NCBI GenBank assembly: GCA_016926805.1
Contig: JAFGNV010000063.1
Span: 1-64,000, forward strand
Source: Anaerolineae bacterium
Lineage (GTDB): Bacteria > Chloroflexota > Anaerolineae > 4572-78 > J111
Length of the DNA: 64,000 nt
Reading direction: 5' to 3'
Both the position numbers and the translations under genes were made by a program. Every line of letters starts with the position of its first letter. Positions within the stretch are counted from its first letter, which is position 1. Below are positions 4,085 to 55,205 of the stretch, piece after piece. The notes beneath the pieces were generated by a model. The model made no database searches, was not told where the DNA came from, and worked only from the letters and a program-made list of their open reading frames with translations.

Positions 4085-5296
4085 CTACTCGTCTAAACCG
4101 GCCGCCTCGCGCAAGAGGTCGGCCTTATCGGTTTTTTCCCAGGGAGCATCGATGTCGGTGCGGCCAAAGTGACCATAAGCCGCGGTGGCCTGGTAAATCG
4201 GCCGGCGCAAATCGAGGTCGCGAATGATAGCGGCCGGGCGGAGGTCAAAATGGGTTTTGACCAGGCTAATGATCTTTTCATCGCTGATTTTGCCGGTGCC
4301 AAAGGTCTCTACGTTTAGCGACAGCGGGTGAGCCACACCAATAGCGTAACTGACCTGCAACTCGACGCGGTCGGCCAGACCGGCGGCCACAATATTTTTG
4401 GCAATATAGCGGGTCATATAGGCGGCCGAACGGTCCACCTTGGTGGGGTCTTTACCGGAGAACGCGCCGCCGCCGTGCCGGGCCACGCCGCCATACGTGT
4501 CAACAATAATCTTACGCCCGGTCAGCCCGGCATCGCCCATTGGCCCGCCGGTTACAAAACGGCCGGTGGGGTTGACGTAAATTTTGGTCTGGTCGTCAAT
4601 CATGTCGTGAGGTACCACGGGGGTAATCACCTCGCTGATGATGTCCGTCCGAATATCATCCTGGCGAGCATCCGGGCTATGTTGGGTGGAGATAACCACG
4701 GTATCGACTCGCTTGGGCTGGCCGTAGGCATACTCAACCGTGACCTGGCTTTTGCCATCCGGGCGCAGGTATTCAATGGTGCCATTTTTTCGCACTTCGG
4801 CTAACTGGCGGCAGAGCCGGTGGGCCAGGGAGATACTCAGCGGCATAAGTTCTTCCGTTTCGTTGCAGGCAAAACCAATCATCATGCCCTGGTCGCCGGC
4901 GCCGGTATCCAGATGGTCCTGTATCTGACCCGCTTTGGCTTCAAGAGCTTTATCAACGCCCATGGCAATATCGGGGGACTGTTCCTTAATACTGACAATG
5001 ACGCCACAGGTTTCAAAATCAAACCCGTATTTGGCCCGGGTATAACCAATATCGCGGATGGTCTGGCGGGCGATGTCGGCAATGTCAACATAAGTGTTGG
5101 TGGTGATTTCACCCATTACGCAAACCAGGCCGGTGGTGATGGCGGTTTCGCAGGCCACGCGAGCATACGCGTCGTCCCGGTAAATCGCGTCCAGCACGGC
5201 ATCGCTAATTTGATCGCACATTTTGTCGGGATGTCCCTCGGTTACCGACTCGCTGGTGAAGAACAGTTGGGGAGAAGTCATAAATGTTGTCGTCAT
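4085..5296 (-). CDS. metK: S-adenosylmethionine synthetase
   Basis: [25 protein letters not shown] and [19 protein letters not shown]. Confidence 0.97.
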
Positions 5297-5783: not shown

Positions 5784-8082
<2,299 letters not shown>

Positions 8083-8100: not shown

Positions 8101-9171
8101 TTATTTTTTGCCAATTTTAGCCTGCTCCTCTTCCACCGCCCGGCGCAGATTGATGCTGTAGGGGGGGTATACCACGCTATGTTCGGTGACAATGCCGGTG
8201 ACATACTTGTAGGGGGTCACATCAAACGCCGGATTGCCAACTTTGGCGCCTTTGGGAACCACGGGCCGACCAAAAAGAGTCAAATCGGTTACTTCGGCGC
8301 TATCACGCTCTTCAATGGGGATGTCATCGCCGGTGGGGAGAGTCAGGTCAACGGTGGAGGTAGGAACCACCGGGAAAAAGGGAATGCCGTTTTCCCTGGC
8401 CACCACTCCCAACTTGTAGGTGCCTATTTTGTTGGCCACGTCGCCGTTGGCCGCAGTGCGGTCCGATCCCACAAACACAATGTCTACCTGGCCGGTACGC
8501 ATGTAATGTCCGGCGGCATTATCAACAATGAGAGTATAGGGAATGTTGTATTGCTCACATTCCCAGGCCGACAGGCTGGCCCCCTGTAGCCGGGGGCGGG
8601 TTTCGTCTAACAGCACGTGAATATTCTTACCCTGCTCGTTGGCCATCCGGATAACGCCCAAGGCCGTGCCCCAATCAACCGTGGCCAGGGAACCGGTGTT
8701 GCAATGGTGCAAAATGGTATCGCCTTCTTTGACCAAGGCGGCGCCATGGCGGGCCATACGTTGGTTGATTTCCACGTCCTCATCGGCCAGTTGCTGGGCT
8801 TCAACCAGCACGGCCTGGCGAATGTCGTCCACACGGGTGAGGTTTTCATCTTTGGCCGCTCGTAACATTCGCTCGATGCCCCAAAAAAGGTTGACTGCGG
8901 TGGGGCGGGTGGCCCGCAATATTTGGGCAGCGGTGTCCAGATCGTTTAACAGGGCAGCGCGGTTACTGGCATTGCTTTGCCGGGCGGCCAGAGCCATTCC
9001 AAAGGCAGCAGCGGCGCCAATGGCTGGCGCACCCCGGATGTACATCTCACGGATAGACATGGCCACGCCGTGGTAATCCGAAAATTCAGCCACTTCAAAT
9101 ACACCGGGTAACTGGCGCTGGTCGATCATTTTGACCAGGTTACGGCCATAATCCCATTCAACCGTCCGCAT
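8101..9171 (-). CDS. mtnA: S-methyl-5-thioribose-1-phosphate isomerase
   Basis: [54 protein letters not shown]. Confidence 0.95.
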
Positions 9172-9229
9172 TCATCTGTCCTCCTTTGGCGTTATCCAAA
9201 TAACAACACCAGGCTTTGCCTGGACTCCA

Positions 9230-9298
9230 GCTTTGTCTGTAACTAACAAGCATAAAGTGCGAGCGCAATATTATGCGGCGTTATCAATGGACAAAACC
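9230..9298. repeat. Dispersed palindromic repeat D, copy 1
   Basis: GCTTTGTCTGTAACTAACAAGCATAAAGTGCGAGCGC...GCGGCGTTATCAATGGACAAAACC; near-copy at 28397-28464. Confidence 0.8.
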
Positions 9299-9316
9299 TT
9301 TGTAATTGCAAAGGGC

Positions 9317-9357
9317 AAAAAAAACCTCCGCAAAAATCGGCGGAGTTTGCATTCTCC
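9317..9357 (-). terminator. Intrinsic terminator with overlapping antiterminator in mtnA leader
   Basis: On minus strand CTCCGC-cgattttt-GCGGAG then T8 (9317-9345); overlapping GGAG-aatgcaaa-CTCC hairpin (9342-9357). Confidence 0.7.
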
Positions 9358-9439
9358 ATCTCGCCAAATGGATAATTTGGTAAATCTTCCTCAACGGCTC
9401 GGACTATAACATAATGACCGCAACTTTACCCAACCGGCG

Positions 9440-9468
9440 ATGTTATCACAGGCAGGGAGGTTTGTCAA
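9440..9468 (-). promoter_or_regulatory. Sigma70-type promoter TTGACA-N17-TAACAT for the mtnA-metK operon
   Basis: Minus-strand TTGACA (9468-9463), 17-nt spacer, TAACAT (9445-9440). Confidence 0.75.
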
Positions 9469-9483
9469 ACAACTCTGCCACAA

Positions 9484-9595
9484 TGGTGCGTCCAGAATTT
9501 TGTGCAACCTTCAGTTGCCCGAAGTTTGGACAAACTTGGGGGGATTCGGGGGAATCCCCCCGCGCCCCCCTCTGTCCTAAAATTGTGGACAGACC
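9484..9595. mobile_element. MITE-like element C, copy 1 (112 bp) with 9-bp direct flanks CTGCCACAA
   Basis: Ends TGGTGCGTCCAgAATTTT and GGTCTGTCCAcAATTTT (inverted); CTGCCACAA at 9475-9483 and 9596-9604; internal hairpin GGGGGGATTC/GAATCCCCCC. Confidence 0.75.
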
Positions 9596-9739
9596 CTGCC
9601 ACAACTCGGCAGGTTGGCGAAAATGTAAAGAATATTTAACCCGGCCTTTACCTTCCCATAATGATGGTTTGATATAATCATTGTAGCCGGGTTGTTATAG
9701 ACAGAAGCGTTAGGTTAGAGGAATCTCAGGAGGGAAAAA

Positions 9740-28344: not shown

Positions 28345-28396
28345 TCACAAAACTGGTAGAATGAAGAGTAAGGAGTTGTTCAAAAACAACTCCCTA

Positions 28397-28464
28397 GCTT
28401 TGTTCGTAAATAACAAGCACAAAGTGCGAGCGCATACCATGCGGCGTTATTTATGGACAAAGCC
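28397..28464. repeat. Dispersed palindromic repeat D, copy 2
   Basis: GCTTTGTTCGTAAATAACAAGCACAAAGTGCGAGCGCATACCATGCGGCGTTATTTATGGACAAAGCC; arms GTAAATAAC/GTTATTTAT. Confidence 0.8.
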
Positions 28465-28510
28465 TAACCATATCCAAAAATAGAGAACCGATTTTTGCGG
28501 CAATAAGACA

Positions 28511-35634: not shown

Positions 35635-35719
35635 GGGTCTGTTCCAAATTTTGGATAGATCAGGGGGAAAACACCCCCCGGCCTGCGGCGCAATGCGTTC
35701 TAAAATTGGGGACTCATCC
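35635..35719. mobile_element. MITE-like element C, copy 2 (85 bp) with 8-bp direct flanks GTAAACAC
   Basis: GGGTCTGTTCCAAATTTT...AAAATTGGGGACTCATCC; GTAAACAC at 35627-35634 and 35720-35727. Confidence 0.75.
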
Positions 35720-35751: not shown

Positions 35752-36081
35752 ATGGCAACTTCCGTACCTATCACCGATGCCAGTTTTGACGCCGAAGTAT
35801 TGAAGTGTGATATTCCGGTGCTGGTTGATTTTTGGGCGGAGTGGTGCGGCCCCTGCAAAACAATTGCGCCCACCCTGGAAGAGATTGCCGCCGAAAATGA
35901 AAATCGGCTTAAGGTTACCAAGCTAGATGTTGACGCCAACCCCCTGGCGGCGAGTCATTACTCTGTGTTGAGCATTCCCACCCTCATTCTTTTCAAGTTT
36001 GGCCAGCCCGTTGAATACATCGTCGGCGCCCAACCTAAAAAGGCTATCCTGGATAAAATAACGCCTTATCTGGACGAATAA
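35752..36081 (+). CDS. Thioredoxin
   Basis: VLVDFWAEWCGPCKTIAPTLEEIA, SIPTLILFKFGQP. Confidence 0.96.
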   Translation: MATSVPITDASFDAEVLKCDIPVLVDFWAEWCGPCKTIAPTLEEIAAENENRLKVTKLDVDANPLAASHYSVLSIPTLILFKFGQPVEYIVGAQPKKAILDKITPYLDE

Positions 36082-55126: not shown

Positions 55127-55205
55127 GGTCTGTCCCAATTTTTAGGTCATAGGGTAGGGACAGGACAATGTCCTGTCCCTACCGCCAAAATTTTGGGACG
55201 CACCC
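55127..55205. mobile_element. MITE-like element C, copy 3 (79 bp) with 10-bp direct flanks CTGTGGTTGG
   Basis: GGTCTGTCCCAATTTTT...AAAATTTTGGGACGCACCC; CTGTGGTTGG at 55117-55126 and 55206-55215; internal palindrome GTAGGGACAGGACAaTGTCCTGTCCCTAC. Confidence 0.8.

Follow-up and report, generated by a model that had tools for sequence, protein, structure and literature searches.

A family of short, geneless mobile elements found at a fixed distance upstream of promoters in Anaerolineae

The mtnA locus and its inserted element

The analyzed window, a 64,000-nucleotide stretch of an Anaerolineae genome, contains a methionine-salvage/SAM operon comprising mtnA, a PfkB-family kinase gene, ahcY and metK (Table 1). 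The operon promoter, TTGACA-N17-TAACAT, was kept in six relatives (G001, G002, G006, G011, G016 and G018), apart from minor differences in the -10 hexamer. Upstream of it lies a 112-bp element bracketed by exact 9-bp direct repeats (CTGCCACAA), as the initial annotation had described. Sister copies of this element usually end in GGGT...ACCC, so that C9596 is possibly the last base of the element, which would leave a duplication of 8 bp (TGCCACAA). The same annotation gave the gap between the insertion and the -35 box as 7 bp; in fact 6 bp separate the box from the repeat, and 15 bp separate it from the element.

Both termini matched the proposed consensus with 0 mismatches, and as inverted repeats they are imperfect, the left and right ends being identical at 14/17 positions. 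The perfect hairpin reported earlier was present with arms GGGGGGATTC and GAATCCCCCC, and the element folded as single-stranded DNA was much more structured than shuffled sequence (z = -4.8). No gene is contained within the 112 bp, an 87-aa frame at 9414-9677 continuing into both flanks, and because it carries no gene the element is classed as a MITE. An Rfam search of the window gave no match at gathering threshold; CssrB and Brucella CII26 matched at low threshold, with scores far under gathering, and these matches were judged to be chance.

Table 1. Features of the mtnA locus, the element and related copies
Feature	Position	Strand	Remarks
MITE, 112 bp	9484..9595	+	C9596 is a possible last base
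Target-site duplication, left copy	9475..9483	.	CTGCCACAA; from sequence and family statistics
Target-site duplication, right copy	9596..9604	.	CTGCCACAA; TGCCACAA at 9597-9604 if C9596 is element
Left terminal inverted repeat	9485..9501	+	GGTGCGTCCAGAATTTT; end toward mtnA promoter
Right terminal inverted repeat	9579..9595	-	GGTCTGTCCACAATTTT; matches consensus
GCAAC-CTTCA-GTTGC hairpin	9504..9518	+	distinguishes the 112-bp subfamily
Perfect 10-bp hairpin	9538..9561	+	arms GGGGGGATTC at 9538-9547, GAATCCCCCC at 9552-9561; 4-base loop
-35 box TTGACA, mtnA/SAM-operon promoter	9463..9468	-	15 bp from element; invariant in six relatives
-10 box TAACAT	9440..9445	-	spacer 17
Intrinsic-terminator-like hairpin, operon leader	9326..9345	-	kept in relatives
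mtnA, S-methyl-5-thioribose-1-phosphate isomerase	8101..9171	-	first gene of operon
PfkB-family kinase	7075..8082	-	
ahcY, adenosylhomocysteinase	5784..7049	-	
metK, methionine adenosyltransferase	4085..5296	-	
Sister element, 83 bp	35636..35718	.	duplication GTAAACAC
Sister element, 78 bp	55127..55204	.	direct repeat CTGTGGTTG(G)
37-bp elements, relative G007	L126, L150, L164, L170, L184, L242, L261		8-9 bp duplications

The element was absent beside the mtnA promoter in all six relatives and, since the promoter itself is kept in them, it predates the insertion. The initial annotation had proposed such an ortholog comparison as a check. The absence of the element stood, while the empty site could be seen on the promoter side only, as the DNA beyond the insertion is not alignable in the relatives; G001 and G006 have one single stretch similar to the repeat (TTTTGGTAGAC, TTTTGGCGCAG). 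None of the orthologs compared carried both repeats without the element, the arrangement which had been named as speaking against transposition. The insertion left intact the native 15 bp that precede the -35 box. Judging from this arrangement, basal mtnA transcription is probably little changed and the effect of the insertion near-neutral, and regulatory input from beyond about -51, if there was any, would have been lost.

The operon leader showed some variation of its own. In G016 and G018 a SAM-I riboswitch (RF00162) precedes the terminator of this leader (L215 2897-3028; L216 2592-2704), and no aptamer was detected in the mtnA leader of the window (9326-9436) or of G001, G002, G006 and G011. 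These aptamer-free leaders keep the promoter and the terminator-like hairpin. Between the leader terminator and mtnA lies a repeat of approx. 70 bp (9229-9299) with a second copy at 28396-28465, 84-90% identical in two pieces, whose ends resemble imperfect inverted repeats; it may be a small mobile element as well. The window contains two more pairs of dispersed repeats, 24868-24941/45133-45206 and 90-153/41250-41313 (86% and 89% identical).

Copies in the host genome and in related genomes

The genome-wide search for the element ends suggested by the initial annotation returned many additional copies. Approximately 40 paired copies were found in the host genome, where BLAST gave 47 matches (best apart from self, E = 5e-40) and the terminal inverted repeat pattern gave 105/103 matches compared with 39/39 for the reversed control (approx. 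2.7-fold). Full copies were mostly 95-114 bp, within a range of 78-131 bp. Exact flanking duplications of at least 8 bp (8-11 bp) were present at 21/37 host copies and at 0 in 1000 shuffles of mismatched flank pairs, so that the earlier reading of a MITE-like, transposed element is borne out by a multicopy family with target duplications far beyond chance. At both ends, about 90% of copies had a G (read outward, a C) directly outside GGT; the copy at 9484-9595 has T at its left end instead. Neither of the two sister elements in the window has a strong promoter 15-17 bp away. The one at 35636-35718 lies shortly ahead of an ATG start codon near 35752.

Matches to the family were obtained in G001, G004, G007, G009, G017 and G018, and weak ones in G015 and G019, all of one order. 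By its identical match positions, G007 corresponds to the public record series RFJV01 (Chloroflexi bacterium isolate J111). In a sample of 400 Chloroflexota genomes there was no match beyond the host genome at 1e-6, and the relatives of the element are confined to the order of the host. Their copies align only to query positions 38-114, that is without the GCAAC-CTTCA-GTTGC hairpin; because they match only the remainder of the consensus, the 112-bp form is seen in the host genome alone. Three exact 18-bp matches were found in viral contigs.

Spacing between element copies and promoters

All collected copies were scored in a scan for sigma70-like promoters facing away from either end. The start of the -35 box peaked at 16-18 bp from GGT ends, which is 15-17 bp from GGGT ends, on both the left and the right. 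A promoter at this spacing was found at 37/94 non-redundant copies, a fraction which is probably underestimated since the set includes some short fragments, and at 21/39 copies in the host genome, about half of the host copies lacking a strong promoter at that spacing. The peak promoters lay on the left of 23 copies and on the right of 14, and never on both sides of one copy. Other 3-bp windows held 0-7 copies, and shuffled flanks gave a mean of about 0.65 with a maximum of 3. An open reading frame of at least 100 aa was present downstream of 34/35 promoter-bearing sides and of 99/141 other sides. As sibling copies keep the same promoter distance, the placement reflects targeted insertion and not chance; the closeness to the -35 box, treated at first as incidental, is the insertion rule of the family.

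A second MITE family was present in G007 (L195-L210, ends GGGTGCGTTTCAAATTTTTG), with a promoter -35 box 16 bp away at 11/19 ends. Repeats at contig ends of G007, considered as possible autonomous copies of the first family, proved to belong to this second family.

Candidate transposase and alternative explanations

Guerillot et al. (2014, PMC3942029) reported that TnGBS/ISLre2 and the ISKra4 group, though not IS256, insert at sites lying 15-17 bp before the -35 box of sigmaA promoters. In the same study p-MULT elements gave 8-9 bp duplications, and promoters flanked ISKra4 elements at either end where the two ends were nearly symmetric. The MITE family agrees with the ISKra4 group (p-MULT 4) in its GGG/CCC ends, its 8-9 bp duplication, its 15-17 bp promoter spacing and its use of promoters on either side. 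It differs in carrying no transposase gene and in length, 78-131 bp compared with over 1 kb for ISKra4, and its terminal sequence GGGTGCGTCC was on none of the ISKra4 elements examined. TnGBS integrative and conjugative elements and ISLre2 (p-MULT 3) share the -35 spacing, but insert in a single orientation with IRR beside the promoter, whereas the MITE family uses both ends. Among relatives in the Chloroflexota, ISKra4-family elements had GGG-type ends (GGGTGTGACT, GGGTGCATTA, GGGCGCAACT, GGGTCTATTT), exact 9-bp duplications surrounded four of them (L095, L098, L101, L107), and at two with well-defined ends (L101, L103) a promoter lay some 17 bp beyond one of the ends.

From these shared features we consider it very likely that the MITE is mobilized in trans by a promoter-reading transposase of the ISKra4 group. 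Such an enzyme, a DDE transposase belonging to p-MULT 4 among the prokaryotic Mutator-like families, would select target sites 15-17 bp before the -35 box in sigma70/sigmaA promoters, possibly by recognizing promoter-bound RNA polymerase. At the present locus the pre-existing mtnA/ahcY/metK promoter would have been chosen, the target cut with an 8-9 bp stagger and the element inserted, leaving the core promoter and its native upstream 15 bp untouched and displacing the DNA farther upstream by about 121 bp. No autonomous element with ends GGGTGCGTCC...GGACAGACCC was found in the host genome, in relatives or in 38 named genome loci, and in the single-contig genome G018 there was no close-matching end pair at IS spacing among the matches listed; the autonomous partner, usual for a MITE though not needed for that name, may be extinct or unassembled. 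Two ISKra4 candidates for this partner were rejected. The ISKra4 transposase of the host genome is present as fragments only, with flanks lacking the MITE ends, and no convincing ends were found for the intact ISKra4 gene of G001 (L096).

The missing partner would also fit with a transposase of another family, such as IS256 (p-MULT 1), inserting without regard to promoters, the closeness to -35 boxes then being accident or a bias toward intergenic survivors. IS256-family elements likewise give 8-9 bp duplications, but had no promoter preference in the same study (Guerillot et al. 2014, PMC3942029). IS256 transposases went undetected in 6/7 element-bearing genomes searched, and the ends of the sole IS256 element, in G018, bear no relation to GGGTG. 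A peak limited to three positions cannot be explained by general intergenic survival, and we regard insertion by a promoter-blind transposase as improbable. The fact that copies adjoin promoters could also mean that the element carries or creates a promoter and is selected as a regulatory module, as with Correia elements; outward-facing promoters have been described in MITEs (PMC10969869). At mtnA this is already contradicted, the promoter being entirely outside the element and kept in six relatives which lack it, and the scan found no sigma70-like promoter inside the element and promoters on one side only per site, which leaves selection as a regulatory module highly improbable for the family. 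The strong hairpins and palindromic subunits of the element recall a REP/REPIN-like repeat or a structured RNA gene, with flanking repeats arising by coincidence. This reading is scarcely credible: it is already contradicted by the statistics of exact 8-11 bp duplications, and the defined GGG/CCC ends and the lack of an Rfam match at gathering threshold also stand against it. REPINs are likewise short, palindromic and multicopy, but are not known to have target duplications.

The family also differs from other bacterial MITEs. Correia, QMITE and MITEAba12 (PMC10969869) are likewise short, geneless, multicopy and hairpin-forming, with terminal inverted repeats and duplications, but regulate through internal promoters or IHF sites, whereas the present family is placed at constant spacing from a promoter that was already there. 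The element is an ordinary-looking MITE with an insertion rule which is not ordinary; the family is new and its promoter targeting is a new result. Our literature search, itself incomplete, turned up no previous description of such targeting by MITEs of the ISKra4 group. Dozens of natural insertions pinpoint promoters in uncultured Chloroflexota with a precision of one or two bases, the promoter-upstream targeting of ISKra4-group and TnGBS elements extends to very small non-autonomous DNA, and transposase recognition of bacterial promoters becomes testable on minimal substrates.

Still shorter forms were found in G007, where at least seven 37-bp units consist of two abutting inverted repeats with exact 8-9 bp duplications. 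That the promoter-reading system mobilizes elements cut down to this size is possible but rather unlikely; 37 bp would not suffice for the usual circular intermediate, and units of this length, if mobile, would need a different transposition substrate. The long elements contain GGACAAACC internally and GGACAGACC at the terminus; slippage between these two sequences would produce exactly the 37-bp form, and we favor such an in-place collapse of longer copies as its origin.
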